A stretch of DNA of 20,515 nt from Halieaceae bacterium (lineage in GTDB: Bacteria > Pseudomonadota > Gammaproteobacteria > Pseudomonadales > Halieaceae): contig JABJAS010000203.1 in assembly GCA_018666055.1 (NCBI GenBank), positions 1-20,515 of the forward strand. The letters are read 5' to 3'. Made by a program: the position numbers and the translations under genes. Of the stretch, positions 2,168 to 20,320 are shown one piece after another. Position 1 is the stretch's first letter. Each line of letters starts with the position of its first letter. Under the pieces are notes generated by a model. It had not been told where the DNA came from. It saw nothing but the letters and a program-made list of their open reading frames with translations, and did no database searches.

Positions 2168-2209
2168 TCTGGATTGAGAGCCCAGATTGAGAGTCTAGAC
2201 CGACAATCT
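2166..2209. repeat. Two overlapping, mutually exclusive hairpins in a convergent gap
   Basis: AATCTGG (2166-2172) pairs with CCAGATT (2182-2188), while AGATTG (2184-2189) pairs with CAATCT (2204-2209). Both stems use the bases around 2184-2188, so only one can form at a time. The same stretch holds a direct repeat GATTGAGAG (2172-2180 and 2185-2193). No T tract follows on either strand, so this is at best a weak or Rho-assisted end of the two convergent transcripts. Confidence 0.3.
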
Positions 2210-3185
2210 AAACCAACACCTCTAGACCGCGCTCTATGCACCACATGGCCGACAAAGCACCCAGTGTGTAAACCGGCACAGAGCGCCATCCACTGATTCG
2301 GGGCCCGAGCACTCGGGTCCCGATCGCGGCAACCACCACTAGCAGCATAATGAAAGCCAGTTGACCGAGCTCGATACCCACATTAAAAAATAACAGCGCC
2401 AGTGGAATATTAGATTGCGGCAATCCGGTCTCTGCCAGCGCACCCGCAAACCCCATACCGTGCAGCAAACCAAAGAGACCGGCCAGCCACCACGGTTGCC
2501 GCCACAGTCGTCCGCCCACATCACCGCGCGCCAGCTCAACAGCCAACACAAAAATCGACAACGCTATCATGAACTCTACTAGCGAGACCGGGTAGTCAAA
2601 GACGCCAAGCGTCACCATCGCCAATGTCACGCTATGCCCCAGCGTGAAGGCGGTAACAGTATAAATAAGTCGGCGGTTCCACCCGACTAACAACAACAAA
2701 CCCATGACGAATAAGAGATGATCTGGTCCTGCCCAGATGTGCTCAGCACCCAGCCAGCTGTAATCAAGGATGACCGCGCTTGAGCTAGCCTCAGCAGGCA
2801 CCACAAACGCCGGCTGATCAGCGGTAAACACCGCCTGATGAAAAACATCATCGACCAGATAAACTCGCAGTAAAGCTGACGACTGATTCTCACCTAAACC
2901 ATTAACCGAGAGGGTCTTTCCCACTATGCCGCCGGGGCAGGTCAGCTGTATTTGCCGCAACATGCCCGTCCCTTCTTGAATCCAAGGAGACTCAGAGGTA
3001 CGCGCACAATCCGGGGGAAACTGCGGCTCAATGGGTGTCGCCGACACTTTCTGCGCTGGCGTTTTCCAAGTTGCTGTCAAGCCATTATCCGAGAGTTGCC
3101 GAACCTCTAGCAGTGATGGCGCAAAGCGATGCGCCCCTGCTTCTACCGACAACAATAGCGTGATGACACAGAGCAACCACTTCAT
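2208..3185 (-). CDS. HupE/UreJ-family membrane protein
   Basis: A 325-residue protein with a signal peptide (MKWLLCVITLLLSVEAGA) whose predicted cleavage exposes an N-terminal His (HRFAPS). A His at the mature N-terminus is typical of HupE-type proteins. Residues up to about 135 form an extracytoplasmic beta-rich part. The rest holds about six to seven membrane segments with GPDHLLFV, FTLGHSVTLA and FGLLHGMGFAG, the His-containing signatures of the HupE/UreJ fold. HupE and UreJ are linked to nickel handling for hydrogenase and urease, but no hydrogenase or urease genes are visible here, so another metal or role is likely. The ATG overlaps the stop of the upstream parvulin gene by 4 bp (ATGA), implying translational coupling. 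Confidence 0.75.
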   Translation of the reverse strand: MKWLLCVITLLLSVEAGAHRFAPSLLEVRQLSDNGLTATWKTPAQKVSATPIEPQFPPDCARTSESPWIQEGTGMLRQIQLTCPGGIVGKTLSVNGLGENQSSALLRVYLVDDVFHQAVFTADQPAFVVPAEASSSAVILDYSWLGAEHIWAGPDHLLFVMGLLLLVGWNRRLIYTVTAFTLGHSVTLAMVTLGVFDYPVSLVEFMIALSIFVLAVELARGDVGGRLWRQPWWLAGLFGLLHGMGFAGALAETGLPQSNIPLALLFFNVGIELGQLAFIMLLVVVAAIGTRVLGPRISGWRSVPVYTLGALSAMWCIERGLEVLV

Positions 3186-4102
3186 GAGCGCACGACCTCA
3201 TACCCAACAAACGCATTGTCCACCCAATCGTCCACCGCGCGCTCCTCAGCCTCACGAACGAGCGCTCCCTCTATTTTCAGACTCACTTCTTCCAGCGGCA
3301 TCGTTCGTTCGGGCTGCACCGCGGCAATAAAAACATAATGCTGACCGAAGACTGAGGTAATAGGCCCAATCCAGTCGCCAAGGGCGGGGGCCAGTGCCGT
3401 CAGCTCCTGCGCAAAGACCGCTCCAAACACCCGAGTCATCTGGTCAGCGCTTTGTAAGCTGAAGTCATAGCCCGACAGAAACGGGGCGCCCAACGCCCTC
3501 GCCTGCTCGCTGTTCATCTGCTCAGCCTCTACCGCTGCGATGAGACCGGGCATCTCGTCTACACGTTCAGCTGACAAAAAAACATGACTAAAAGTGTAAC
3601 GTGGGGGCTCCAAGTAACGACTGACGTCGCGCTGATAACGGGTAGCAATCTCATCTGGTGTGGGCCGTGCAGTAGCCGCCGTCGCCACGATCAGTCGCTC
3701 CATGATCTGAACGAGCCGTCGGCGAATCACCTCATCGGTTAGTGGCAACCGCAGGGCGTAGCCTTGCGCGATGAGCGTGGCATCGTCGGCCTGAGTATCC
3801 GCATCCAGAAACCGCATATTACGGATGATCCGTTGCTCAATCGCAGCATCGCGGTATTGCAAACCCCGCTGAAGCGCCTCTCGAAACAGCAGCTCGTCAC
3901 GCAACTCAGCGTCAATAAATCTAGAGAGCACCTCAGTGCTAATCTCAGCGCGGCTGAATTGGCGGTAATTCTCGGTCATTGCCTGCAGCCGTGCCGCATT
4001 GGGCGGACCCAGCACCGGCTTAGGCACGGGGAAGGCCCAGCGACCTGCCATAAACAGGAATAAGCCCAGCACTAAAAAGTGCAGCCAAGGTTTTTTCAAC
4101 AT
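3182..4102 (-). CDS. Membrane-anchored peptidyl-prolyl isomerase, PpiC/parvulin type
   Basis: A 306-residue protein with one N-terminal hydrophobic segment (about 5-25) that acts as an uncleaved anchor or signal, placing the rest in the periplasm. Residues about 35-160 are helix-rich and SurA/PpiD-like. Residues about 165-265 carry a degenerate parvulin domain: PPRYTFSHVFLS, then GAPFLSGYDF, then FGAVFAQELTALAPALGDWIGPI followed by a conserved-type FGQHYVFI. Parvulins catalyse prolyl cis-trans isomerisation and assist folding of exported proteins. It is translationally coupled to the HupE-like gene, so that membrane protein or its metal-binding ectodomain is a reasonable client (inference). 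It starts 35 bp after the nitroreductase stop. Confidence 0.75.
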   Translation of the reverse strand: MLKKPWLHFLVLGLFLFMAGRWAFPVPKPVLGPPNAARLQAMTENYRQFSRAEISTEVLSRFIDAELRDELLFREALQRGLQYRDAAIEQRIIRNMRFLDADTQADDATLIAQGYALRLPLTDEVIRRRLVQIMERLIVATAATARPTPDEIATRYQRDVSRYLEPPRYTFSHVFLSAERVDEMPGLIAAVEAEQMNSEQARALGAPFLSGYDFSLQSADQMTRVFGAVFAQELTALAPALGDWIGPITSVFGQHYVFIAAVQPERTMPLEEVSLKIEGALVREAEERAVDDWVDNAFVGYEVVRS

Positions 4103-4137
4103 CGTGAGTGCGCTATCGCCAAAACGGGGTCAGCAAT

Positions 4138-4689
4138 TTAAAAGTAGCTAACAAAAGTATCAAGCGGTTCTACGGGACACAGTTTCTGCGGCCCTTCCCG
4201 GGTGCCCAAATACAGAAAGCCAATCACCTGATCATCGACGGCGCCCCCTAACGATTCGATCACTGATGGATCTGTCGCATAGCCGCCGGTTCGCCACATA
4301 CTGCCAATACCCAGCGCTTCAGCAGCTAATTGCGCCGCAGATAGCGCTGCCGCTACCGCATGAGCTTGTTCTTCTCGTGCAATTTTAGGATGTGCCACCG
4401 GATGAAGGAGGCCAGCGATAATGAGCGGCGCGCGCAGCGGCGCGTTGGCTGCTTTTTCCAACTTTGCCGGATCATCGACGCCTTTTAATCGAAGGCTCTT
4501 CACAAACACATCACCCAGGGCCCGCCGCCGATCACCGGCAACGACTACAAACCGCCAGGGGCGCAAGCGACCATGGTCTGGGGCGCGCAAGGCCGCTTGC
4601 AAAATGGTATTCAACTCGCCTGCGTCAGGGCCGGGATCCACCAGCCGAGCGTGCGAGTTACGGTTGAGTAAGGTGTCAATCGCTGACAT
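4138..4689 (-). CDS. Nitroreductase-family FMN flavoprotein, YdjA type
   Basis: A 183-residue protein, the same length as E. coli YdjA, the minimal nitroreductase fold. It shows the N-terminal flavin-binding block RNSHARL (about 10-16), APDHGRLRPWRF (about 36-47) contacting FMN, and a C-terminal GIGSMWRTG block. Such proteins are dimeric, bind FMN and use NAD(P)H; physiological substrates of YdjA-like members are unknown. I chose the ATG at 4689 over a TTG five codons upstream; AGAGG lies rather close (3 bp), so the start is not certain. It lies 46 bp downstream of the fabY-like gene and 35 bp before the parvulin gene, consistent with one minus-strand transcript. Confidence 0.8.
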   Translation of the reverse strand: MSAIDTLLNRNSHARLVDPGPDAGELNTILQAALRAPDHGRLRPWRFVVVAGDRRRALGDVFVKSLRLKGVDDPAKLEKAANAPLRAPLIIAGLLHPVAHPKIAREEQAHAVAAALSAAQLAAEALGIGSMWRTGGYATDPSVIESLGGAVDDQVIGFLYLGTREGPQKLCPVEPLDTFVSYF

Positions 4690-4735
4690 GGGCCTCTGTT
4701 CCAAAGATGATGTGAAGGGATGGCCAATCTATTAC

Positions 4736-6571
4736 CTAGCCATCGATTTGCCAACCCTCTGGAATGGCGCCATGCAGCGGAATTGTCTGCTCCCCCAAGG
4801 TAATCGACGTGTCTGTCAGGGACACTTCAGCATCCGTTAGCACACCTTCGTCAAAGTGATACGCCGGCGACCACTCGCCCTTGAGCCGCTGCGTTTCAAT
4901 CGCGCTCTGCGCTGCTTGCACTGCCTCGTGGCGAACCCGCCACGACGTCATCGCGGCAGATCCATGGTGTTGCTGCAATAAGGCTTCTGTTGTGCGGGGG
5001 CTCAGCAGCGCGGCCGTGGCGTTATTACCACCAAATCCCTTGCTGTTAATCAGCGCATAGTCGCGATCAGTGATCTCTCGCTCACTCAGTGCGAAAGAAA
5101 GACGTGCCGTTTCCACGTCTGACGCTAGCCCGTCAATCGTATGAATACCGGGTATGATCCCGTGTTGCCAAATCCCGAGAGTTGCCGTGAGTTGGTCACC
5201 GGCTGCGGCAGCAAGGGAGTGGCCCACAAAACTCTTGATCGCGGCGACTGGCCAGTCTTTGATGTCGAAAGCTTGCGCCACCTTGCTCAGCAGGGTCGAT
5301 TCCGTCACCCGGTTTTGCGGCGTGCCGGTGCCGTGCGCTTGCACCATCCCACCCGCTCGCAAACGCTGACTACCCAGCATGCTGCGCAATGTGCTCACGG
5401 CCTCCGCCATCGTCACATAGTTGCCCGCTCCAGGTCCCGAAATGGATTTTTTAGCGCCATCCGCCCGCACACTCACAAAAGGCGCACCAGCGAGAATGGG
5501 AGCACCCAGCTCAATCGCTAATGCGTCGTCCATCAAAATCACGACCTGGGCAGATTCCGCCATCGTAAAGCCGCAGTTGTTGCCAAAAGGCCTGCAGGCT
5601 CTGCGATTATCGGGTCGTTCGTTATCTGCCTGACCGTCGAGTTGCCGCAAGCCCTTATCCGTTGCCAGCGCACCCATGGCCAAATAACCGTCCATCAGCT
5701 CGGCATTGACCGGCGCCTCTGCCGCACCGACTACCGCGATGCGAGACCGACCAGCGCGAATATCATCAATACCGAGCCGAAGGTTATAGAGAAACGTGGC
5801 GCAAGCACCGAGCGCGGGACCCGTGCGACTCATCGCGCCCAGAATATAAGCACTGATAAAATCGCCCGGCATTTCCGCGAAACCCAGCGGGCATTGCTTC
5901 GAACTCACGCGACGGCCCTGCCAGCGTGATCGCATCATGCCACCGTAACCCGCCTCGTCTAACTGCCCCATCGCGCTCGACACATAAACGCTGATCGCTT
6001 CAGCGGGCACGTGAGCCGCCAAGCTGGGCCAGTCCATACCCAAATCAGCCAGCGCATCCGACATCGCGAAAACGGTCATCTGTAGCGCGCGCGGGTGATT
6101 CCTTGACGGGTAAAGTGCGCCCGGATCAAAGCCCGTAGGCAATTGACCTGCGCTACTGACCTCAAACTGCCGCGTACTCGGCAGCAGCACTTCGGACTCA
6201 GGCTGGAGCGCAAGTCGGACTCGCTTGCCCTCTACTGTTTGGGCACCACCGCCAATCACCGTGCCGTCAGTCATCGTCCCCGCACTATATTCAAAGCAGT
6301 GATCTGACTGGCCCGCCGCGATCGTCGCTCGCCGATGCCATGGCACGGCGCGGTGATCAAACCAGCCGGCCTCTATCTCTCTGATCAACGTGTGCTGGCG
6401 TATCAGCGCACCATCTTGGGTCCCCATCATTTGGGCCAACGCCGATTCAGTGCCGGCACGATCGCCCACACTCAGATGGTCCCACACCATCCTGCGGTAA
6501 GCATGGCGCCGCGACGTGCGCCCTGCACTGTTGACGCCACCCGCAGCGACCATCACCGGCATTCTGAGCAT
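4736..6571 (-). CDS. fabY: Beta-ketoacyl-ACP synthase, FabY type
   Basis: A 611-residue condensing enzyme, about 200 residues longer than FabB/FabF and close to Pseudomonas FabY in length and in its N-terminal block (PVMVAAGG-N-AGR). The thiolase-fold active site is intact: Cys257 in GACATF, His413 in VQAHGTGTP, and Lys446 and His451 in KSFVGHS. A glycine-rich GFGGNN loop follows near 512-516. FabY performs the first condensation of fatty acid synthesis, joining acetyl-CoA to malonyl-ACP in the cytosol. A role as a general or specialised ketoacyl synthase remains possible. The start at 6571 has AAGGGCGG 7 bp upstream; the frame runs open to 6841 but that extension crosses the divergent regulator and its promoter. 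It heads the minus-strand group with ydjA-like, ppiC-like and hupE-like genes. Confidence 0.75.
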   Translation of the reverse strand: MLRMPVMVAAGGVNSAGRTSRRHAYRRMVWDHLSVGDRAGTESALAQMMGTQDGALIRQHTLIREIEAGWFDHRAVPWHRRATIAAGQSDHCFEYSAGTMTDGTVIGGGAQTVEGKRVRLALQPESEVLLPSTRQFEVSSAGQLPTGFDPGALYPSRNHPRALQMTVFAMSDALADLGMDWPSLAAHVPAEAISVYVSSAMGQLDEAGYGGMMRSRWQGRRVSSKQCPLGFAEMPGDFISAYILGAMSRTGPALGACATFLYNLRLGIDDIRAGRSRIAVVGAAEAPVNAELMDGYLAMGALATDKGLRQLDGQADNERPDNRRACRPFGNNCGFTMAESAQVVILMDDALAIELGAPILAGAPFVSVRADGAKKSISGPGAGNYVTMAEAVSTLRSMLGSQRLRAGGMVQAHGTGTPQNRVTESTLLSKVAQAFDIKDWPVAAIKSFVGHSLAAAAGDQLTATLGIWQHGIIPGIHTIDGLASDVETARLSFALSEREITDRDYALINSKGFGGNNATAALLSPRTTEALLQQHHGSAAMTSWRVRHEAVQAAQSAIETQRLKGEWSPAYHFDEGVLTDAEVSLTDTSITLGEQTIPLHGAIPEGWQIDG

Positions 6572-6634
6572 ATTGCGTCCGCCCTTTGATAACCGCCCAC
6601 CCATCGTGGCCGGGCTGTGGCACGCAGTGTACCC

Positions 6635-6663
6635 TCGACAGACAATTAAAGTATGCGTATAAA
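6635..6663 (+). promoter_or_regulatory. Sigma70-like promoter of the GlxA/AraC-type regulator
   Basis: TCGACA (6635-6640), a 17-bp spacer and TATAAA (6658-6663) match the -35 and -10 consensus at 5 of 6 positions each. Transcription would begin near 6670, a few bases before the second in-frame ATG (6674). The first ATG (6653) would lie upstream of the RNA start. This favours 6674 as the real start and a leaderless or nearly leaderless mRNA; no Shine-Dalgarno sequence precedes either ATG. Confidence 0.5.
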
Positions 6664-6685
6664 GCCATATATTATGCGTATAAAG
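6652..6685 (+). repeat. Two perfect 13-bp direct repeats, 21 bp apart (AraC-type operator candidate)
   Basis: TATGCGTATAAAG occurs at 6652-6664 and again at 6673-6685, an offset of exactly 21 bp, two helical turns. AraC-family proteins commonly bind tandem direct half-sites at about this spacing. The first copy contains the -10 hexamer of the candidate promoter and the second contains the likely start codon, so binding could block transcription or translation. It also sits in the spacer to the divergent fabY gene. The repeat makes the encoded N-terminus read MRIK twice. Confidence 0.6.
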
Positions 6686-7687
6686 ACAAGCGAACCGGCC
6701 AGTTTTCGCGTTGCCGCCCTGCTCCATGAGAATATTTTGGCCTCCTCTATCACGCTCCCGATGGAAATATTGGCGGGCGCCGCACAGGCGCTTGGTCGTG
6801 GCGCTCAGCAGTCGCTGTCCTTCCAGTGTCTCAGCGAGCAAGGGGGGCCGCTCACATTACAAACTGGACTGACCGTCGCGACCGAGCCATTCGGTGCACT
6901 CACGGAGGCGGACCTATTGATCATCCCTGCGATCTGGAGGCAGCCGCAACGTGTGCTGCAAAAACACCCAAAGCACATCGAGGTGATCACACAACATCTG
7001 AGCAAACGAGGACTCACGGTCAGTATTGGGTCGGGTAGCTTTTTACTGGCTGCCACCGGGCAAATGAATGGGCGCTCAGCCACGACACACTGGCACTGGT
7101 TTGATCACTTTAAAAAACGCTATCCACTGGTGCAGCTAGAACGCGAGCAGCTGATCACGCAATCGGATCAGGTATTCTGTGTCAGCAGCGTCAATTCTGT
7201 TGCTGACCTCATGGTCTATTTATGCGGCCAAATTTTTTCTCCACGAGTGGCACGCCACATCGAAAATCAGTTTTCGCCCGAAATTCGCCAGCGCTTTTCG
7301 CCCTCTCCAGTCGGCGCACCCAGAGACTTGCACGGTGACGAGTTAATCGTCGATGCACAAATCGAGATCAGCAGGGATCTTCGATCCGTCATGCCGTTAC
7401 AAGACATGGCGCAAAAGCTCGGTGTCAGTTCACGAACCCTCGCGCGACGCTTTAGTGCCGCCACCGGCGTATCAATGACCGAGTATCGCCAGCAACGGCG
7501 ATTAGATGAAGCACAAGCGCTGCTCCGTCGGACCAATCTATCCATCATGGAAATAGGCCATGCGGTGGGCCTGACCGACGCTTCTCACTTTACCCGCATG
7601 TTCCGAGAACAAACCGGATTAACGCCGAGCGGTTATCGTATCGCGGTCCGCGAAAAAGCCTTCGCGCCCCATCCTCCGTCAGACTGA
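6674..7687 (+). CDS. GlxA-type transcriptional regulator (DJ-1/PfpI-like domain plus AraC DNA-binding domain)
   Basis: A 337-residue regulator from the ATG at 6674 (344 from 6653). Residues about 11-190 form a class-I amidotransferase/DJ-1-like sensor domain. The block SIGSGSFLLAATGQMNGRSATTHW aligns with the SVCTGAFLLA block of GlxA, but Gly119 replaces the Cys, so it should be ligand-binding and not enzymatic. Residues about 230-325 are the AraC domain with two helix-turn-helices (about 243-264, QDMAQKLGVSSRTLARRF, and about 291-312, MEIGHAVGLTDASHFTRMF). It is divergent from fabY and precedes a thiolase, so lipid or acyl-CoA metabolism is a likely target (inference). Paired repeats over its start suggest autoregulation. 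Residue numbers use the 6674 start. Confidence 0.85.
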   Translation: MRIKTSEPASFRVAALLHENILASSITLPMEILAGAAQALGRGAQQSLSFQCLSEQGGPLTLQTGLTVATEPFGALTEADLLIIPAIWRQPQRVLQKHPKHIEVITQHLSKRGLTVSIGSGSFLLAATGQMNGRSATTHWHWFDHFKKRYPLVQLEREQLITQSDQVFCVSSVNSVADLMVYLCGQIFSPRVARHIENQFSPEIRQRFSPSPVGAPRDLHGDELIVDAQIEISRDLRSVMPLQDMAQKLGVSSRTLARRFSAATGVSMTEYRQQRRLDEAQALLRRTNLSIMEIGHAVGLTDASHFTRMFREQTGLTPSGYRIAVREKAFAPHPPSD

Positions 7688-12700: not shown

Positions 12701-13114
12701 ATGCCATCAGTCGAAGACCGATTCGCCATCTCTGAGTTACTCACTCGCATGGCCTATTACTATGACGAGGGTCTCCTCGATCACCTCGAAGCCAGTTTTT
12801 CGCACAATGCCGTCATGAGCATGCAGATCGCCGGTGGTGACCTAGTCGGTCCTTTTCAGGGTCGAGAAGACATCATGGCGCTCTACCGCAATGCCAAATC
12901 GACACAAACTGATGTGCGCCGGCATGACATCACCAATGTGTTCTTTGATGTCGCTGATGGGGTCATCAGCACGACCTCCTATCTGACGCTCTTTGCCACG
13001 GAACATGGCGAGACCAAGCTGCTCACTACGGGCGTTTACCGCGACATCGTCGAACAAAGCGAGGGCGCTTGGCATGTCGTGAAACGCCACATTGATCTCG
13101 ATAGCGGCTATTGA
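12701..13114 (+). CDS. SnoaL/NTF2-like protein
   Basis: A 137-residue small protein with the cone-shaped NTF2-like fold pattern: an N-terminal helix pair (EDRFAISELLTRMAYYYDEGLLDHLEASF), then the short-strand block AVMSMQIAGGDLVGPFQGREDIMALYR, then three beta strands ending in GAWHVVKRHIDLD. This resembles the SnoaL_4 type often found in aromatic and steroid catabolic clusters. Family members act as isomerases, dehydratases or small subunits; the beta subunits of Rieske oxygenases share this fold. The start at 12701 has AAGGA 8 bp upstream; a longer frame from 12656 has none. It is the first operon gene, 9 bp before the acyl-CoA synthetase. Its activity cannot be named. Confidence 0.75.
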   Translation: MPSVEDRFAISELLTRMAYYYDEGLLDHLEASFSHNAVMSMQIAGGDLVGPFQGREDIMALYRNAKSTQTDVRRHDITNVFFDVADGVISTTSYLTLFATEHGETKLLTTGVYRDIVEQSEGAWHVVKRHIDLDSGY

Positions 13115-13123
13115 GGCGCTGAC

Positions 13124-14680
13124 ATGAATCTCGGCCTTATTCCAGCGAAAACCGCGGCGCTCGATCCGTCTCGAGAGGCACTCATTGATATCCCTAATAA
13201 CCGACGTATGAGTTTCGGTGAGCTCGATCATCGTGTGCAGCGCTTGGCCAATGGGTTAAGGGGGACGCTGGGGCTAGCCAAGGGTGATCGGGTCGCGATC
13301 CTCTCCAAAAACTGCATCCAATACATGGAGGTTTTTTACGCCTGCGCTCGCTGTGGCCTCATTGCACAGCCACTTAACTGGCGCTTGAGCCAAATCGAGA
13401 TGGCGCGGATTTTGCGCGACGGCGAGCCCAGTCTGCTCGTCGGCTCTGAGGAATATGTGACGCTGGTGAACGACCTTGCAAAGGAAACGAGCATTCCGCA
13501 CTCACTGGTCTTCACATCCGACGCCAACGCTGATTATGAGCAGCTGATCAGTGGCGCCGCGACCGGCATGGTGATCGGCGAAGACGAGGTCAGCGGATCA
13601 GATCCAGCACTGATTCTTTACACCGGGGGCACCACCGGGGAGTCCAAAGGCGCGCTGCACTCCCACCACTCCCTTTACATGGGCATGCTCAACCAATCGA
13701 TTGCAGAACGCATTGTGCCCACTGATGTTTACATGCTGACCGGGCAAATGTTCCACATACCAGTTGCTTTAGCGATGAACTACATGGCGCATGGCTGTCC
13801 CGTCGTCTTGATTAACTTTGATGCCCAACTGGCCCTTGAAGTCATCGAGCAGGAAAAGGTCTCCGCTTTCCTGGGCATTACCACCATGATCAACTGGATG
13901 ATGGCGGTTGAGGGATTTGAAAATTACGACTTGAGTAGCCTGCGCAACTTTCAATATGGCGGTGGCCCGATGCCACGCTCTGTAGTACAAGCCGCACTCG
14001 AGGCTTTCCCGTGCACGATGATTCAGGGCTATGGACAAACAGAAGGCATGACCATGACCTTTCTGTCGCAAGAGGATCACCAGCGCGCTATCGCAGGAAA
14101 CCACCCCGAACGGTTGGGCTCCTGTGGTCGAGAGGGCTTTGTTTCAGAGATTCGCGTTGTCGACCCCGAAGGCCAGCCGGTGCCGAAAGATGGCAGCGCT
14201 TATGGTGAAATCATCGTCCGCTCAGAAGCTAATATGCTGGGCTACTGGCGACGTCCCGACCTGACCGAGAAAACTCTGCGCGATGGCTGGATGTGGACAG
14301 GGGACATTGCCGTTTGGGACGAGCAAGGCTACGTTTTCATCGTCGACCGAGCCAAAGACATGATCATCTCAGGTGGCGAGAATATCTACAGCACGCAAGT
14401 GGAGGCGGCGATCCACCAACATTCAGCGGTCTTAGAGTCAGCGGTATTTGGCGTGCCCGACGATGTATGGGGCGAGGCGGTAAAAGCCGTTGTCGTACTC
14501 AAGCCCGGCCAGGCGGCGACTGAAGCAGAGATTATTGCCGAGGCCAGCAAGCACCTCGCGTCATATCAGAAGCCCAAGACAGTCGATTTCGTGGACGCAT
14601 TACCCAAAGCGCCGACCGGGAAAATACTCAAGCGAGAGCTGAGAGATCCCTACTGGCAAACGGAGTCACGCAAAGTATGA
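13124..14680 (+). CDS. Acyl-CoA synthetase (AMP-forming ligase)
   Basis: A 518-residue ANL-superfamily ligase that should activate a carboxylic acid through an acyl-AMP to its CoA thioester in the cytosol. Motifs in order: P-loop YTGGTTGESKG (166-176), the adenine-binding block YGQTEG (303-308), TGD (392-394), the hinge region DRAKDMIISGGENIYS (408-423) and the C-terminal catalytic lysine in PTGK (Lys500). The acid cannot be deduced from these motifs; long-chain, aromatic and steroid acids are all possible. GAGG stands 7 bp before the ATG. It follows the SnoaL-like gene by 9 bp and its stop overlaps the next start by 4 bp (ATGA), so it should be made with the hydratase subunits. Confidence 0.9.
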   Translation: MNLGLIPAKTAALDPSREALIDIPNNRRMSFGELDHRVQRLANGLRGTLGLAKGDRVAILSKNCIQYMEVFYACARCGLIAQPLNWRLSQIEMARILRDGEPSLLVGSEEYVTLVNDLAKETSIPHSLVFTSDANADYEQLISGAATGMVIGEDEVSGSDPALILYTGGTTGESKGALHSHHSLYMGMLNQSIAERIVPTDVYMLTGQMFHIPVALAMNYMAHGCPVVLINFDAQLALEVIEQEKVSAFLGITTMINWMMAVEGFENYDLSSLRNFQYGGGPMPRSVVQAALEAFPCTMIQGYGQTEGMTMTFLSQEDHQRAIAGNHPERLGSCGREGFVSEIRVVDPEGQPVPKDGSAYGEIIVRSEANMLGYWRRPDLTEKTLRDGWMWTGDIAVWDEQGYVFIVDRAKDMIISGGENIYSTQVEAAIHQHSAVLESAVFGVPDDVWGEAVKAVVVLKPGQAATEAEIIAEASKHLASYQKPKTVDFVDALPKAPTGKILKRELRDPYWQTESRKV

Positions 14681-15132
14681 CGGGCTTACTTTCGACAGAG
14701 GTGTTGTCCCACATCGGCCAACAGACTGACCCTCAACGTGAGATTGTCACGCGCCGTGACATTCGCAAATACGCTGTGGCGACGGGGAGTCGGTTACAAA
14801 AATATCTCGACGGCGATGTGGCGCCGCCCCTATTCCACCTGCATCTGTTTTGGGATGTCGTCCCGCTCGACACGCTATCACCCGACGGCGTGTTTACCGA
14901 TCATTTGCTACCCAAATTCCCTCTGGAAAAAGCCATGGCGGGCGGCCTCGATATTCAGTACCACCAACCTATCAAACCGGGCGATTGGCTAACGGCCACA
15001 CGCACTTTATCCAATATTTATGAAAAAGCGGGCCGCAGCGGTGCGCTCATTTTTTACGAAGTGATGATGGAAATCCGCAATGACAGCGGCGAGCTGGTCG
15101 TAAGCGAGAAGACAACGAGGATCTTACGATGA
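14677..15132 (+). CDS. MaoC-like hydratase, FAS1-like dehydratase (N-terminal) subunit
   Basis: A 151-residue single-hotdog protein. It shows APPLFHLHLF (about 49-58), the AGGLDIQYHQPIKPGDWLTA block (about 88-107) and the KAGRSGALIFYEVMMEI strand block (about 117-133). This is the pattern of the N-terminal half of two-hotdog hydratases such as the 3-methylfumaryl- or mesaconyl-C4-CoA hydratase group and eukaryotic-type HTD. In that architecture this half supports substrate binding and the partner half carries the catalytic His. Here the halves are two genes that overlap by 4 bp (ATGA at 15129-15132), so a heterodimer is expected. It is also coupled by ATGA to the acyl-CoA synthetase upstream. 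Confidence 0.8.
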   Translation: MTGLLSTEVLSHIGQQTDPQREIVTRRDIRKYAVATGSRLQKYLDGDVAPPLFHLHLFWDVVPLDTLSPDGVFTDHLLPKFPLEKAMAGGLDIQYHQPIKPGDWLTATRTLSNIYEKAGRSGALIFYEVMMEIRNDSGELVVSEKTTRILR

Positions 15133-15536
15133 CGCCTGAACCGTCGATCGGGATGGCACTCCCGGAGCGTCATCACCATTGCGATGTCGTGCAGCAAATG
15201 CTCTACAACGCGTCGCTGTGGAACGGCCATCGGATCCACTTTGACCTACCTTATGCGACTGAGGTCGAGGGCTATTCAGGCCTCGTCGTGGCAGGCCCAC
15301 TGTTGGGTGATTGGTTGCATCAGATCGTCGATGAGTGGCTGGACGATGCCGGCATGATTACCGGCATCGAATACTCCAACCGTGTTGCCGCCTTTGTTGG
15401 AGAAACGGTGACAGCCGGCGGTACCGTGACCCAGTATGACCCGGACAGTGGAGCGCTGACGCTCGAGGTCTTTGTCAAAAATGACCGCGACGAAGTGCTG
15501 GCTCCGGGTATCATTACCGCCCAGCTTCAGCGTTAA
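15129..15536 (+). CDS. MaoC-like hydratase, catalytic-type (C-terminal) subunit
   Basis: A 135-residue hotdog protein that looks like the second half of a two-domain MaoC hydratase. The active-site stretch NASLWNGHRIHFDLPYATEV (27-46) matches the family's FNAHRIHYD block; by alignment His37 takes the place of the catalytic His and Asn32 takes the place of the Asp of PhaJ-type hydratases, which is usual in this subgroup. The following VVAGPL has Ala55 where VVHGPL is common. With the upstream subunit it should add water across the 2,3-double bond of an enoyl-CoA. It ends 10 bp before the thiolase-fold gene. Confidence 0.8.
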   Translation: MTPEPSIGMALPERHHHCDVVQQMLYNASLWNGHRIHFDLPYATEVEGYSGLVVAGPLLGDWLHQIVDEWLDDAGMITGIEYSNRVAAFVGETVTAGGTVTQYDPDSGALTLEVFVKNDRDEVLAPGIITAQLQR

Positions 15537-15546
15537 GTCAGACCAT

Positions 15547-16725
15547 ATGAAATCGCAAGCATTGAGAGGCGAATACGCTCTCGTCGGCATGGCAGAGAGC
15601 GCCGTGGGTGTCGTCCCCGACAAAAGCCCTCGTGAACTGTGTGTCGAGGTCACCCTCAACGCCGTTAAAGATGCTGGGCTCACCCTCTCCGATTGCGATG
15701 GATTGATCACCTGCAACGCTTTTGCTGAACCCATCTTGTATCACGCGGAGGCGGTCGCCGAATATCTCGGCTGGCAACCGCGGCATTGTGTGACCGTCAA
15801 TACCGGCGGCGGCACCACCTTTATGGCCATTAATATGGCGATCGCCGCGATCGCAGCGGGCATGGCGGACACCATTGTGGTCTCGATGGCAGACAGCCTC
15901 CGCAGCTTCATGACACGCGACCAGGCCATGGTGGTCCAGTCTAGCTCGGGGCACCCGCATTACGAGCAACCCTATGGCCCCACGGTACCGGCTTACTACG
16001 CTTTAATTGCTCGCGCTCACATGGATCGCTTTGGCACCACAGAGGCGCAGTTTGCGGAGGCGGCAGTCTCTTGCCGCGCCTGGGCAAATCAACACCCCAA
16101 CGCGCAAAAACGAGAGCTGATTACCGTAAACGATGTTTTACAGTCTCGTCCGATTGCTGACCCCCTAAAAGTACTGGATTGCTCATTGGTGTCGGATGGA
16201 GGCGCCGCAGTGGTGATTACGCGCCGAGAACGTGCTCAGGAAGGACCTCATCAGCCGATCTATGTGCTGGGCTATGGTGAGGGACATGCTTACGAGCACA
16301 TAAGCCAAGCCGCAGATTTAACCACTTCTGCAGCGGTCATAGCCGGCGATGCCGCCTACGCCGCCGCCGGTCTCACACCCGATCAGATCGACCTCATGCA
16401 GCTCTACGACTGCTTCACGCCAGCGCTGTTAATTCAGCTCGAGGATCTTGGCTTTTGCCGTAAAGGTGAAGGGGGCGATTTCCTCGCCAGCGGCGTGACG
16501 CGCCCTGGGGGATCCAAGCCACTCAACACCCATGGCGGAATGCTGTCTCACTGCCACCCCGGCAATCCGGGCGCGATGTTTGGACTGACTGAGGCCATGC
16601 TGCAAATGCGGGGCGATGCTCAAGCACGCCAACTTGCCAATATTCAAACCGCCCTCTGTCACGCCCAGGGCGGGATTATGTCGAGTCACGCCACGTTGAT
16701 CCTTGGCGTAGAGGCAACACTATGA
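15547..16725 (+). CDS. Thiolase-fold lyase/lipid-transfer-type protein (Ltp2/SCP2-thiolase family)
   Basis: A 392-residue thiolase-fold protein. Where true thiolases carry the nucleophilic Cys (for example NNNCSTGS), it has VNTGGGTTF (84-92). The NEAF loop reads YDCF (287-290), and the GHPxGxSG block reads CHPGNPGA (336-343) after NTHGGMLSH. These traits mark the Ltp2-like group, some of which are retro-aldolases that remove a side chain from a 3-hydroxyacyl-CoA when paired with a DUF35 protein. The next gene is such a partner, coupled by ATGA. A retro-aldol reaction is therefore more likely than thiolysis (inference from family and context). The start at 15547 avoids the 25-codon extension that overlaps the hydratase gene; its ribosome site is weak. 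Confidence 0.8.
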   Translation: MKSQALRGEYALVGMAESAVGVVPDKSPRELCVEVTLNAVKDAGLTLSDCDGLITCNAFAEPILYHAEAVAEYLGWQPRHCVTVNTGGGTTFMAINMAIAAIAAGMADTIVVSMADSLRSFMTRDQAMVVQSSSGHPHYEQPYGPTVPAYYALIARAHMDRFGTTEAQFAEAAVSCRAWANQHPNAQKRELITVNDVLQSRPIADPLKVLDCSLVSDGGAAVVITRRERAQEGPHQPIYVLGYGEGHAYEHISQAADLTTSAAVIAGDAAYAAAGLTPDQIDLMQLYDCFTPALLIQLEDLGFCRKGEGGDFLASGVTRPGGSKPLNTHGGMLSHCHPGNPGAMFGLTEAMLQMRGDAQARQLANIQTALCHAQGGIMSSHATLILGVEATL

Positions 16726-17129
16726 GCCGGCCAACGCCGAATCCGACCCCCACCGAGCAGCCATTTTACGATGCCTGTCAGCGCGGCGAGCTCTTATTGC
16801 AACACTGCAACGACTGTCAGCACATCTTGTTTTACCCCCGCACCCATTGCGATGCCTGCCAAAGTGACTCGCTGTCGTGGCGAACGGCGAGCGGCAAAGG
16901 CGTCATTGCCACTTATACCGTGGTGCGCCGAGGCGTTTCTGCCGACTTCCCAGCACCGTATATCATCGCGCTGATCGATCTTGCTGAGGGCCCTCGCATG
17001 ATGAGCCAGATCATTGACACAGAACCCGAAGCACTCTCAAGCGGTTTATCCGTCATGGTCGACTTTGAAAGCTGGTCCGATAGCATCACACTACCCGTGT
17101 TTCGCCTAGTAACAGGGCAGACACCGTAG
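16722..17129 (+). CDS. Zn-ribbon/OB-fold protein (DUF35 family), partner of the thiolase-fold protein
   Basis: A 135-residue protein with an N-terminal helix, a rubredoxin-like zinc ribbon with Cys29, Cys32, Cys43 and Cys46 (CNDC and CDAC), and an OB-fold (about 55-130; GVIATYTVVRRG, PYIIALIDLAEGPRMMSQI). Such proteins pair with Ltp2-type thiolase-fold enzymes; in actinobacterial steroid side-chain breakdown the DUF35 domain of ChsH2 is needed for the Ltp2 aldolase. Here the domain is a separate protein, not fused to a hydratase. Its ATG overlaps the stop of the thiolase-fold gene by 4 bp, which fits equal production of both subunits. It ends 14 bp before the Rieske gene. Confidence 0.85.
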   Translation: MSRPTPNPTPTEQPFYDACQRGELLLQHCNDCQHILFYPRTHCDACQSDSLSWRTASGKGVIATYTVVRRGVSADFPAPYIIALIDLAEGPRMMSQIIDTEPEALSSGLSVMVDFESWSDSITLPVFRLVTGQTP

Positions 17130-17143
17130 AGCGAGAAAAGGCT

Positions 17144-18496
17144 ATGACTAACCGAATGATTCCCACTGCCATCCTCAACCCCGACGCCTCCCCCGAGAGC
17201 CTCGAAGCGAAGCAACCTGCTATCAACAATGGCGCCGAAATCTATGGCAAATCCGGGTACTTCAGTCATGAGCAAGTCGAGCAAGAATGGCAAAAGATCT
17301 GGACCGACAGCTGGCTGATCGCAGGGGTCAGCACTGACCTACCTCATATCGGTGATTATTTTCTCTTTCGGGTGCGCAGCGAATCGCTGATCATCACGAA
17401 AACCGCGGAGGGCATCAAAGCCTTTTATAACGTTTGTCCCCATCGAGGCGCTCGCCTCATCACCGAGGAGCGCGGCAATAAGAAGGTCTTTGTCTGCCCT
17501 TTTCATAGCTGGAGCTTCCACAATAACGGCGAGTTGCGCACCATTACCGACGAAGACACCTTCCAAGAGGCGGTGATCTGTCATCGACCCGGCTTAACCG
17601 CGGCCGCCTGTGAAGAACACGCAGGGCTCATTTTTATTAGCATGGCTGATCAGCCTCCTGCCCTAACAGACGTGATTGGCCTACCCGAGGGTTATCTTGA
17701 GAATTACCAGATCGATAAAATGCGTGTCGTGCGTCATGTGCGCAGCGAATGGGGCTCAAACTGGAAAGTAGGGGTCGAAGCTTTTTATGAGAGCTACCAC
17801 CTCCACGCAGTGCACCCAGAAACGCGGGGGGTCATGGGCGACCTTAACGTGCAATATGACCTCTACCCGAACGGTGCTAGCCGCATGATTGTGCCGCTGG
17901 GCCAGCCCAGTCCACGACAAGCCGATCAAACGACGGTCAATGAAGGCCTCCAATGGATGTTGCAAGAGGCCGGTGTTGACCCCGCCACCTTTGAGGGTAG
18001 CGCCGGCGACGTACGTGCTGCGATTCAGCAAGCCAAGCGGGATCGGTCGAGTCGCTTAAATTTAGGCTACGACCGTTTCGCAGATGGGCAACTTTCCGAT
18101 AGTTGGGCCACCGGTATTTTCCCTAACGTACAGATCGGCTGCCATCCTGAGGCCATTTTTTTGATGCGCTTTATGCCTCATGAAACCGATCCCGAGCGGT
18201 TCTGGTATGACACCATGACACTGCTCTTCCCCGTCGACGATCCGGATTATTGTCCACCAGGCTGGATGGGGTTGCCCGAGGGCACCGACGCGACAGGCGC
18301 CGTGCGTCCTAAGACGGAAACCTTCTTACTGAACGAGGATCCTGGTTTGGGCTTAGTGCTCAATCAAGACGCCGACTTCCTCCCCTCAGTGCAAGAAGGG
18401 ATGCGGAGCAAAGCCTTTCAAGGGCAGCTTTGGGGTGAGCAAGAACAGCGGTTACGACATTTCCACGTTGAGCTCGAGCGGCGGTTAGGGCGTTAA
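17144..18496 (+). CDS. Rieske non-heme iron oxygenase, alpha (catalytic) subunit
   Basis: A 450-residue oxygenase. The Rieske [2Fe-2S] ligands are Cys98 and His100 (NVCPHRG) and Cys118 and His121 (CPFHSWSF). The mononuclear iron site is in EAFYESYHLHAVHP: Glu216 as the bridging acid, His219 and His224 as ligands, and probably Asp409 in NQDADFLPSVQEG as the third. It should activate O2 for ring hydroxylation, O-demethylation or another oxidation in the cytosol. Electrons must come from a ferredoxin/reductase, and none is encoded here. There is no classical beta subunit either, unless the SnoaL-like protein serves. The ATG at 17144 has AAAAGG very close; a second ATG at 17156 is possible. It is the last gene of the operon. 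Confidence 0.9.
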   Translation: MTNRMIPTAILNPDASPESLEAKQPAINNGAEIYGKSGYFSHEQVEQEWQKIWTDSWLIAGVSTDLPHIGDYFLFRVRSESLIITKTAEGIKAFYNVCPHRGARLITEERGNKKVFVCPFHSWSFHNNGELRTITDEDTFQEAVICHRPGLTAAACEEHAGLIFISMADQPPALTDVIGLPEGYLENYQIDKMRVVRHVRSEWGSNWKVGVEAFYESYHLHAVHPETRGVMGDLNVQYDLYPNGASRMIVPLGQPSPRQADQTTVNEGLQWMLQEAGVDPATFEGSAGDVRAAIQQAKRDRSSRLNLGYDRFADGQLSDSWATGIFPNVQIGCHPEAIFLMRFMPHETDPERFWYDTMTLLFPVDDPDYCPPGWMGLPEGTDATGAVRPKTETFLLNEDPGLGLVLNQDADFLPSVQEGMRSKAFQGQLWGEQEQRLRHFHVELERRLGR

Positions 18497-18862
18497 TCGC
18501 TGCCAACCTGCGCGGCGGCCTCTCACCCTGTCACAGAGGGCGTTCCTACGTTTTGGCAAAACACGTCGCGGTGCTATTCATCGTGACAGCCCCGGCAAGC
18601 AGCGGACACCTAGGCACCCTTGACGGCTTAGCCCCCACGAACCCGGCAGGCTCATCCCCCCTTGTCGCCAGCTGCGGCGCGACAATTCAGACCAGTAATT
18701 CGCCATGAGAAATCACTTTAAATTACAATTAATTGTTTTAAATCAAATATTTGGAATTTATATCTGAATTTCATTCTCCTTAACTCAGTGCGCACCGCGT
18801 CTGCCCTCCTACAGAGCAAACTGTGTATACTTTGCGGCCGCAAGTCCGGTGAGGAAAAAAAC
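18497..18862. promoter_or_regulatory. 366-bp intergenic control region before the aldehyde dehydrogenase
   Basis: No gene is apparent. From left to right it holds an inverted repeat GTTTTG-G-CAAAAC (18550-18562), a hairpin TTGTCGC (18662-18668)/GCGACAA (18679-18685) with a 10-nt loop, a strongly AT-rich block (about 18715-18775) containing the perfect palindrome ACAATTAATTGT (18725-18736) flanked by TTTAAA on both sides (18717-18722, 18737-18742), and the ALDH promoter region. No classical T-tract terminator for the upstream operon is visible, so some read-through into the ALDH gene is possible. Confidence 0.45.
18826..18843 (+). promoter_or_regulatory. -10 element and start-site palindrome of the aldehyde dehydrogenase gene
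   Basis: TATACT (18826-18831) is a good -10, placing the RNA start near 18838 and giving a leader of about 25 nt. No good -35 stands at 17-18 bp, which suggests an activator. Directly after it is a perfect 12-bp palindrome TTGCGGCCGCAA (18832-18843) covering the start site, a likely place for a repressor. The ribosome site GTGAGG follows. Confidence 0.45.
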
Positions 18863-20320
18863 ATGAATGCCCCACAACAAGTCGCTGTCAGTCCCGATAC
18901 TGAAATCAAAATGCAAGACGCGCTCAAGGCGCAGCAAGCAAGCTATATAAAAGAAGGATACGTCTCGGCTGAGACACGCATCGACCGTATCAACCGAGCT
19001 ATTGATGTTTTGGTTCGCCATGCTGACCGCATCAGTGACGCGATTGACAAAGACTTTGCAGGCAGGCCCCACCAAATTAACTTGATGACGGACGTCGCCG
19101 CCTCCATTGGCTCGATGAAGCACTGCCGCAAGCACCTCAAAAAGTGGATGAAAGCGGAGAAGCGGCCGTCCACCTTCCCTCTGGGTCTACTGGGAGGACG
19201 CTCTAGGATTCACTATCAACCCAAAGGGGTCGTTGGGATCGTCGCGCCGTGGAATTTCCCTGTCGCCATGATTTTCCAGCCTTTAGCCGGTGCACTGGCG
19301 GCCGGTAACCGCGCCATGATTAAACCATCCGAATTTACGCCTGAAACGTCAAAAGTGGTTGCAGAAATTATTGCTGAAGCCTTTGACCCGACCGAGGTCA
19401 CTACCTTCTCAGGCGGCCCCGAAGTTGGACAGGCTTTTACGTCGCTCCCTTTTGACCACATGATCTTCACCGGCGCGACCAATATCGCGCGGCATGTGCT
19501 GACCGCAGCAGCGCGTAATTTGGTCCCGGTCACCTTAGAGCTGGGTGGCAAGTCTCCTGTTGTGCTGTCTCGCAGCGCCGATCTTGAGCAGGCCATTGAG
19601 CGCATCATGGTGGGCAAGACCCTGAACGCGGGGCAGATCTGTCTGGCACCCGATTATCTTTTAGTCCCCGAAGAGCAGCTGGAAGAAGTGATTCGCGTTG
19701 CCACCGAGACCGTTGCCAACATGTATCCCAGCCTGCTGAGTAATGAGCAATACACCTCCGTCGTGAATGAGCGTCACCATACGCGGCTGAGTTCGTATAT
19801 TGCCGATGCTGAGCAACGCGGCTGCCGTGTAATTCCCATTAATCCGGCCAACGAAGATTTCAGTGCGGGAACCCACAAGATTCCCCCGACGCTGGTCATC
19901 GCCCCCGAAAACGAAGCGCTGTGCATGGAGGAAGAAATCTTTGGTCCACTGCTTCCGATCCGCACGTACTCGCAGTTTGACGAAACCATTGACCACATTA
20001 ACAATGGTCCGCGTCCCCTCGCTGCCTACTACTTCGGCAGCGATAAAAACGAGGAGGAAGCGATTCTGCATCGCACGACGTCAGGTGGCGTTTGCATTAA
20101 TGATGTGATCTTTCACATTGCGCAGGAAGACATGCCCTTTGGCGGCATTGGCCCCTCAGGCATGGGCTCTTACCATGGTATAGAAGGATTCAAGACCTTT
20201 AGCCACGCTAAGTCAGTTTACAACCAGACGGTGAAGTTTAATGTGGGCAAACTCGGCGGCATACTGCCACCTTATGGCAAAGCGACGGACAAGAACATTA
20301 AATCGCAGATCAAGCGTTGA
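18863..20320 (+). CDS. Aldehyde dehydrogenase, coniferyl-aldehyde dehydrogenase type
   Basis: A 485-residue NAD(P)-dependent ALDH, similar in length to coniferyl aldehyde dehydrogenases. Motifs: GIVAPWNFP with Asn131, the nucleotide-binding lysine in IKPSEFTPET (Lys154), FTGAT (202-206), the general base in LELGGKSP (Glu226) and the catalytic Cys260 in GQICLAPDY. The ICLAPDY context and the short C-terminus (GKLGGILPPYGK) resemble the CALDH subfamily, which oxidises aromatic and aliphatic aldehydes to acids. Beside the CoA-ligase/hydratase/aldolase operon it could act on the aldehyde released by side-chain cleavage or make the acid that feeds the ligase (inference). The start at 18863 has GTGAGG upstream and fits the promoter; the frame is open from 18788 but that part lies before the RNA start. 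Confidence 0.85.
   Translation: MNAPQQVAVSPDTEIKMQDALKAQQASYIKEGYVSAETRIDRINRAIDVLVRHADRISDAIDKDFAGRPHQINLMTDVAASIGSMKHCRKHLKKWMKAEKRPSTFPLGLLGGRSRIHYQPKGVVGIVAPWNFPVAMIFQPLAGALAAGNRAMIKPSEFTPETSKVVAEIIAEAFDPTEVTTFSGGPEVGQAFTSLPFDHMIFTGATNIARHVLTAAARNLVPVTLELGGKSPVVLSRSADLEQAIERIMVGKTLNAGQICLAPDYLLVPEEQLEEVIRVATETVANMYPSLLSNEQYTSVVNERHHTRLSSYIADAEQRGCRVIPINPANEDFSAGTHKIPPTLVIAPENEALCMEEEIFGPLLPIRTYSQFDETIDHINNGPRPLAAYYFGSDKNEEEAILHRTTSGGVCINDVIFHIAQEDMPFGGIGPSGMGSYHGIEGFKTFSHAKSVYNQTVKFNVGKLGGILPPYGKATDKNIKSQIKR

Follow-up and report, generated by a model that had tools for sequence, protein, structure and literature searches.

The 20,515-nucleotide stretch of Halieaceae DNA analysed here in full (the window; contig JABJAS010000203.1 of assembly GCA_018666055.1) carries, on its plus strand at 12701-18496, an operon of seven genes that encodes a thiolase-fold protein, ThlL, together with a free DUF35 partner. 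The operon is real, tight and conserved among relatives, and we lean, with moderate confidence, towards the reading that part of the marine Halieaceae catabolise a lipophilic compound by a pathway of two modules, of which the operon forms the CoA half (module B). ThlL and the free DUF35 protein, judged by their sequences, are probably a retro-aldolase that acts after CoA ligation and hydration. The Halieaceae are marine Gammaproteobacteria, and the host of the operon is a Luminiphilus metagenome-assembled genome (MAG), the closest named relatives of the thiolase-fold gene belonging to Luminiphilus/Halieaceae MAGs at 95–98% identity; the window is contig 35 of this 1.99-Mb draft, which is 66% complete.

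Organisation and conservation of the operon

The genes follow one another in the order SnoaL, CoA ligase, MaoC1, MaoC2, ThlL, DUF35 and Rieske, with intergenic gaps of 9, -4, -4, 10, -4 and 14 bp. Pfam assigns the block to SnoaL_4, AMP-binding, FAS1_DH_region (MaoC-like), Thiolase_C_1, zf-ChsH2/OB_ChsH2_C (DUF35) and Rieske/Ring_hydroxyl_A, followed by an Aldedh protein. An original prediction, made from the letters of the window, had named these eight genes, and all of them are present and intact, with the families that it had claimed and exactly the three ATGA overlaps that it had described within the seven-gene block. A scan for promoters and terminators gave 2 and 5 sites, below the 5.1 and 8.4 of shuffled sequence.

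ThlL was found at E≤1e-100 in 53 of 140 Halieaceae genomes (hereafter carriers). Gene order was counted at 31 well-flanked loci (at least 7 kb upstream and at least 6 kb downstream), comprising 10 of the window's own clade and 21 of other clades or genera, out of 46 loci in total, the 15 with short flanks being excluded from these counts. All seven genes stand in identical order and orientation at 10/10 loci of the window's clade and at 19/21 of the others. The two exceptions are L041, with its Rieske gene approximately 27 kb downstream of the operon, and L042, which of the seven genes has kept only ThlL and DUF35. At one of the ten window-clade loci (L040, on contig 8 of genome G022) the genes for ThlL, DUF35, Rieske and aldehyde dehydrogenase are all interrupted, with several frameshifts in total, which looks more like sequencing error than decay. 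In genome G039, a divergent TetR gene, the Rieske gene, a TonB receptor, a glutathione S-transferase (GST)-like protein and a quinoprotein form a separate cluster approximately 27 kb from the ligase–MaoC–ThlL–DUF35 operon (L054:16881-19006; L091:157-5490). A CoA-transferase III present in L041 was considered as a regular member and rejected, having no reciprocal partner among 32 clustered loci.

Active sites and affiliation of the CoA-dependent proteins

ThlL (15547-16725, plus strand; start placed at the ATG at 15547 rather than at the mechanically chosen TTG at 15472) has Gly88 at the position of the nucleophilic Cys of thiolases and YDCF (Y287-D288-C289-F290) in place of HDCF, and keeps the thiolase His (His337). 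The Gly/YDC/His triple was present in 118/118 homologues longer than 350 residues among the best 120 of 3755 E-value matches, two shorter than 350 residues having been dropped. Assignment to the SCP-2-type or acetoacetyl-CoA thiolases was rejected, as Gly and YDCF occupy the places of the nucleophilic Cys and the HDC motif. The closest solved structures are 4u4e (best score, 292 bits), CtSal of Comamonas testosteroni (9myr) and TcLtp2 (6ok1); when aligned, the active sites read Gly/YDSF/His in 4u4e, Gly/YDCY/Gln in CtSal and Gly/YDHF/Tyr in TcLtp2, as against Cys/HDCF/His in the archaeal thiolase 6esq.

The accessible text of PMC12329534 describes CtSal as a retro-aldolase with Tyr302 and Cys304 catalytic by mutagenesis. 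The window shares with the CtSal–CtShy system, a bile-acid side-chain aldolase and hydratase whose aldolase is of the proteobacterial C5 steroid (Sal) kind, the thiolase fold, Gly at the nucleophile position, the Tyr-Asp-Cys motif, a DUF35 partner and a preceding MaoC hydratase, but has His for Gln352 and Met for Gln347 (positions placed by chain spacing), a free DUF35 with a C4 zinc site, a split hydratase and a separate clade, and membership of the Sal group was rejected on these differences. Likewise, the complex of TcLtp2 with the DUF35 domain of ChsH2, a steroid C3 side-chain aldolase, shares with the window a thiolase fold that lacks the nucleophile, a Tyr base, a DUF35 partner and a heteromeric MaoC hydratase upstream; Ltp2 membership was rejected because Ltp2 has YDHF and a second catalytic Tyr, whereas ThlL has YDCF and His and lies outside the Ltp2 clade. 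A tree of 49 rows places ThlL of the window in a separate clade of 12 rows (100/99), distinct from the pair of CtSal and L095 (100/100), from the Ltp2 group, in which TcLtp2 joins L099, L107 and L103 (100/99), and from the 4u4e group. In relatives, Sal-like and Ltp2-like proteins (L095, L099) occur as separate paralogues. Notwithstanding its aldolase-like residues, ThlL thus belongs to neither group; the label 'Ltp2-type' first given to it was right as regards a non-thiolytic thiolase fold with a DUF35 partner, and imprecise as regards an active site that is neither that of Ltp2 nor quite that of Sal.

Gly at the nucleophile position and the retained His are also found in 4u4e and in YDAF/YDSF thiolases of plasmids and of order-level genomes; the six plasmid-borne ones examined among the ThlL matches all lie outside the ThlL clade. 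These form separate clades and differ in motif (4u4e has YDSF, five of the plasmid proteins have YDAF, and the sixth, L085, has YDCF). A DUF35/OB-fold gene stands beside the six plasmid thiolases (the neighbour of the sixth is annotated as hypothetical), and several plasmid clusters hold acyl-CoA dehydrogenases (ACADs), crotonases or CaiB-type CoA-transferases.

The DUF35 partner (16722-17129, plus strand) consists of a zinc ribbon and an OB-fold (zf-ChsH2, OB_ChsH2_C), and its closest solved relatives are the DUF35 domains of CtShy (84 bits) and then TcChsH2 (63 bits). Among orthologues recovered from the 46 loci, to which the MaoC motif counts also refer, the C4 zinc motif was found in 44/44 and the Shy-type C3H1 motif in 0/44; in Shy, DUF35 is fused to MaoC and bears a Cys3His1 site, whereas the window encodes it as a separate gene.

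Upstream of ThlL lie two hot-dog subunits, both on the plus strand. MaoC1 (14677-15132; FAS1_DH_region, 64.7 bits), whose gene shares an ATGA overlap with that of the ligase, lacks the hydratase motif, and an HxxHxD-type motif occurs in 0/42 recovered orthologues. MaoC2 (15129-15536), the probable catalytic half, carries NxHRIHxD, as do 43/43 recovered orthologues; it has no Pfam match and resembles the C-terminal half of itaconyl-CoA hydratase (8khg/8huc, 42 bits). Two hot-dog subunits with the catalytic motif in one correspond to the organisation of a heteromeric MaoC hydratase, and such an enzyme is predicted here. The two-subunit layout is that of ChsH1–ChsH2, although the sequence of MaoC2 matches itaconyl-CoA hydratase and not ChsH1. 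The AMP-forming acyl-CoA ligase CoAlig (13124-14680, plus strand; AMP-binding, 264.6 bits) has as best solved relatives 8weu/8wev (fatty-acyl/feruloyl-CoA synthetase, 287 bits) and FadD13 (268 bits).

An acyl-CoA dehydrogenase and kinase module in relatives

At many loci of other clades a larger cluster is found, with the operon as its right-hand half; it runs from a short-chain dehydrogenase/reductase (SDR) through an aminoglycoside-phosphotransferase (APH)-type kinase, a second CoA ligase, a TetR regulator, an alpha/beta hydrolase, a luciferase-like monooxygenase, a divergent TetR and a further SDR to the block from SnoaL to Rieske; in many relatives a TonB receptor, a GST-like protein and a quinoprotein with cytochrome follow the Rieske gene. 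Across the 21 well-flanked loci of other clades, the kinase was counted at 15, the second ligase at 14, TetR at 15, the hydrolase at 15, the luciferase-like monooxygenase at 13, the second TetR at 14, the TonB receptor at 10, the GST-like protein at 12 and the quinoprotein at 15.

Extension upstream of the cluster in 11 chosen genomes revealed a divergent ACAD beside the SDR and kinase in all 11. This gene group, module A, consists of the ACAD and, divergent from it, SDR, APH-type kinase, ligase, TetR and hydrolase, then mostly the luciferase-like monooxygenase, and it adjoins module B in 11/11. In the window's clade, module A keeps this order and sits on a different contig from the operon in G034, G020 and G024; the same holds for G032 and G004 up to the ends of their contigs. 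Around those five operons, the 7-10 kb covered (on the downstream side only for G020) do not contain it. The lack of an ACAD, to which the original prediction had drawn attention, is therefore probably an effect of the window: in a stretch of 20 kb, a step encoded at a second locus can look as if it were missing.

Among solved structures, the module A ACAD is closest to 4hr3 (a bacterial ACAD, 249 bits) and ACAD11 (240 bits); the kinase likewise matches the kinase domain of ACAD11. According to the part of PMC12440821 available, R626, H634, R637 and D753 are residues named for ACAD11, and ACAD10/11 and LvaA/LvaC convert 4-hydroxyacyl-CoA via a phosphorylated intermediate to 2-enoyl-CoA. Equivalents of these four residues were present in 22/22 recovered ACADs and the kinase HGD motif in 16/16 (23 loci given, with sequences below the coverage cut-off dropped). 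Module A thereby resembles LvaA/LvaC of Pseudomonas putida and mammalian ACAD10/11, and is of the LvaC type in its ACAD and the LvaA type in its kinase; it differs from them in its link to an operon for a probable retro-aldolase and to Rieske, hydrolase and monooxygenase genes, and in motif (HAMR versus HCMR).

The ACAD (at least 81% identity) also tracks the operon between genomes. It was found in 22/25 carriers versus 1/58 non-carriers in other genera, in 21/28 versus 3/29 within the genus, and in 43/53 versus 4/87 overall. The proposal that the substrate is already an enoic acid fails on this association, and since the ACAD is linked to the operon, the enoyl-CoA may come from a 4-hydroxyacyl-CoA. 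Comparison of gene neighbourhoods had been put forward with the original prediction as a check; ACADs are present in homologous clusters, and the steroid-ring enzyme KshA does not track the operon (below). A flavin-containing monooxygenase-like protein lies beside or near the ACAD in 7/11 genomes, and FxGxxxHxxxWP, which we take to be the fingerprint of (type I) Baeyer-Villiger enzymes, is present in 7/7 (L119:3277-4908 and six orthologues).

Proposed pathway, alternatives and neighbouring genes

From the observed gene content, conservation, active-site residues, clade and co-occurrence, we infer the following reactions, their order and the class of substrate. CoAlig would form the acyl-CoA, and the MaoC1/MaoC2 heteromer would hydrate a 2-enoyl-CoA to the 3-hydroxyacyl-CoA, which ThlL–DUF35 would split by a retro-aldol reaction into an aldehyde or ketone of shorter chain and acetyl-CoA (or propionyl-CoA), with Tyr287 as the base on the hydroxyl and Cys289, together with His337, protonating the acyl-CoA enolate. 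The enoyl-CoA would be supplied, at least partly, by the module A kinase and ACAD from 4-hydroxyacyl-CoA and need not be present in the substrate. Module A would also contribute its second ligase, alpha/beta hydrolase and, mostly, luciferase-type monooxygenase; the Baeyer-Villiger-type monooxygenase of 7/11 genomes could open a ketone or lactone, and the Rieske oxygenase would add oxygen at some step. Of the scheme first proposed for the window, the gene set fits hydration and retro-aldol cleavage after ligation, while the enoic acid, the aldehyde dehydrogenase step and the hydroxycinnamate substrate are not supported. A terpenoid-like or alicyclic compound agrees better with the TonB receptors, quinoproteins, Baeyer-Villiger and luciferase-type monooxygenases, hydrolases and 4-hydroxyacyl-CoA-type module, and the substrate is probably a lipophilic compound of this kind.

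The operon would on this reading be a conserved variant of retro-aldolytic side-chain cleavage, a class of chemistry that is already known. In the portions of the literature examined, proof of retro-aldolytic chain cleavage by thiolase-fold enzymes was given only for steroids; if the reading is true, the chemistry would cover a further class of compounds, by way of a distinct, conserved clade that has its own active site, occurs in a common marine family and is tied to a 4-hydroxyacyl-CoA-type module. Named candidate genes are available in cultured relatives such as L. syltensis. The accessible text of the open-licence PMC literature on Halieaceae steroid and Baeyer-Villiger enzymes, Luminiphilus dioxygenases and retro-aldol thiolase–DUF35 pairs held no description of this cluster, and a literature search on bacterial phytol genes returned nothing relevant. 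A bolder version, which we regard as speculative and rather unlikely, is that thiolase-fold retro-aldolases of a third class, with a Gly/YDCF/His signature also seen in a neighbouring clade, make up, together with a bacterial 4-hydroxyacyl-CoA kinase/ACAD pair and Baeyer-Villiger-type oxygenases, an undescribed marine pathway for phytoplankton isoprenoid or alicyclic lipids. For example, a 3-methyl-2-enoyl-CoA could give a methyl ketone and acetyl-CoA, the ketone then passing through an ester or lactone and a hydroxy acid back to an enoyl-CoA; a tertiary 3-hydroxyl is not oxidisable to a ketone, which would explain a retro-aldolase in place of a thiolase.

Several findings weigh against the two-module retro-aldolase pathway. 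The Gly/YDC/His triple is not confined to the ThlL clade, being found in four neighbours outside it (L048, L085, L092, L096), one of which lies in a plasmid cluster with an ACAD. The residues Gln347 and Gln352 of CtSal, proposed to stabilise the Cys thiolate, are replaced in the window, as judged by chain spacing, by Met and His, and because His337 is the thiolase His, other chemistry of ThlL is conceivable from its residues, such that it may catalyse decarboxylation or Claisen-type acyl transfer. The link between the modules is also imperfect: 10/53 carriers are without the ACAD and 4/87 non-carriers possess it (most, not all, of these genomes being less than 90% complete), a search of the assembly to which the window belongs gave no ACAD orthologue (a negative that decides little at 66% completeness), module A being seen only in sister genomes, and the carrier and non-carrier tallies come from related genomes, so that Fisher statistics overstate their independence. 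Separate TetR-type regulators in most loci of other clades (TetR1 15/21, TetR2 14/21) likewise fit modules A and B that could serve successive or separate pathways.

The aldehyde dehydrogenase gene (18863-20320, plus strand; Aldedh), a neighbour that is probably outside the operon, follows the Rieske gene after a gap of 366 bp. It adjoins the operon at 10/10 well-flanked loci of the window's clade and at 0/21 others, many other carriers having such a gene elsewhere in the genome. In other genera, carriers and non-carriers of the operon have it about equally often (21/25 versus 48/58); inside the genus the two co-occur (23/28 versus 6/29), which shared ancestry could also give. Because its adjacency is limited to one clade and the association is absent outside the genus, it was left out of the operon and is not upheld as the next pathway step, though it may have a role in the window's clade. 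The description 'coniferyl-aldehyde-dehydrogenase-like' also needs correction, as the closest solved relative is the steroid aldehyde dehydrogenase 9nxl (463 bits); the best NCBIfam match, benzaldehyde dehydrogenase MdlD, scores 310 bits against a cut-off of 550.

The resemblance to a steroid aldehyde dehydrogenase belongs to a wider reading, in which the operon degrades the side chain of steroids or sterols, with ThlL and DUF35 as a variant steroid aldolase and the aldehyde dehydrogenase as a Sad-type steroid aldehyde dehydrogenase. We consider it improbable, although the nearest characterised relatives of ThlL (CtSal, TcLtp2), DUF35 (CtShy, ChsH2) and the aldehyde dehydrogenase (Sad, 9nxl) are all steroid enzymes, Shy, Sal and Sad (hydratase, aldolase and aldehyde dehydrogenase, in that sequence) make up the known cholate route in Proteobacteria (as far as seen in PMC8399759) and a Halieaceae isolate grew on cholesterol (as given in the accessible part of PMC5790920). 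ThlL falls outside both steroid clades, members of which occur in relatives as paralogues of their own, and none of the 44 recovered DUF35 orthologues has the Shy-type zinc finger. The steroid-ring enzymes do not follow the operon either: KshA_C proteins (E≤1e-40) are present in 22/25 carriers outside the genus, but also in 45/58 non-carriers there, and inside the genus in 7/28 carriers versus 13/29 non-carriers, which amounts to 29/53 and 58/87 overall. Seven of the 24/53 carriers without a match were searched again at E≤0.001, and KshA_C was found in 0/7, one of these being a genome in a single contig, 99% complete, which corresponds to L. syltensis NOR5-1B. The steroid side chain, which had been named as the main rival from the outset, is weakened by these tallies.

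Deacetylation of hydroxycinnamates, the substrate class suggested at first, would mean that MaoC and thiolase-fold proteins do here what the crotonase-type feruloyl-CoA hydratase-lyase does elsewhere; the aldehyde dehydrogenase would then oxidise the released aromatic aldehyde. The joint-best solved relative of the ligase is named feruloyl-CoA synthetase (8wev, 287 bits), yet the ligase matches fatty-acyl enzymes equally; the sub-threshold MdlD match and the co-occurrence inside the genus speak for the aldehyde dehydrogenase as a partner, and its non-adjacency at 21/21 well-flanked loci outside the clade, with no association outside the genus, speaks against it. The partners kept across the family (4-hydroxyacyl-type kinase and ACAD, hydrolase, TonB receptors, quinoproteins and the Baeyer-Villiger-type enzyme) point elsewhere, and we give the hydroxycinnamate proposal little credence.

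Equally little probability attaches, in our estimation, to carbon–carbon bond formation, that is, to a DUF35-bound condensing or acyl-transfer enzyme in a biosynthetic operon, as in the archaeal thiolase/3-hydroxy-3-methylglutaryl-CoA (HMG-CoA) synthase or PhlABC. DUF35 does partner those enzymes also, and aldol reactions are reversible. The SnoaL protein (12701-13114, plus strand; Pfam SnoaL_4, NTF2-fold) has as best solved matches in a fold search Aln2 and ActVI-ORFA of Streptomyces, presumably polyketide-tailoring proteins, which is in keeping with biosynthesis. Against this, the cluster seen across the family includes TonB receptors, a hydrolase and monooxygenases, which suggest uptake and degradation, and the operon holds no HMG-CoA-synthase-type partner. 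An ordinary beta-oxidation thiolase misread as an aldolase is likewise given little probability, since the family names in Pfam and NCBIfam (thiolase/acetyl-CoA acetyltransferase) and the retained His are set against the replacement of Cys by Gly and of HDC by YDC in all 118 of the homologues described above (from the best 120 of 3755 matches), Gly and Tyr being shared with the aldolases CtSal and TcLtp2.

The Rieske oxygenase alpha subunit (17144-18496, plus strand; Pfam Rieske, Ring_hydroxyl_A) is nearest to GbcA/CntA, which we take to be alpha-only enzymes; the best NCBIfam match is GbcA (124 bits, cut-off 670) and the best PDB match is carnitine monooxygenase (92 bits). The motifs CxH...CxxH and E/DxxHx4H were present with loose spacing in 40/40 recovered orthologues and in the fixed-spacing pattern in 23/40, and an orthologue at E≤1e-120 was found in 18/18 carriers and 0/19 non-carriers of the genus. 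As regards a beta subunit, the SnoaL protein matches Ring_hydroxyl_B at the cut-off, and in the fold search Rieske beta subunits could not be told apart from other NTF2-fold enzymes; in G039 SnoaL remains beside the ligase operon although the Rieske gene is approximately 27 kb away.

Relatives of the Rieske protein with approximately 50% identity occur in a similar gene set in another class, on sphingomonad plasmids of Sphingobium sp. RAC03 (L112) and Croceicoccus marinus (L113), where they lie near a TonB receptor, a pyrroloquinoline quinone-type dehydrogenase and a CoA transferase, and within 10 kb of an OB-fold and thiolase pair; the thiolases of these plasmids are of the YDAF type, unlike ThlL with its YDCF. 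A DAO-type FAD oxidoreductase follows the Rieske gene at 8/19 Luminiphilus-clade loci (L035:13072-14472; also L028, L029, L032, L033, L036, L038 and L039), preceding the aldehyde dehydrogenase gene where the locus extends far enough, and is absent from the window. Elsewhere in the window, the minus strand at 2208-6841 holds a block encoding HupE/UreJ-like, peptidyl-prolyl isomerase-like, nitroreductase-like and 701-residue ketoacyl-synthase-like proteins.

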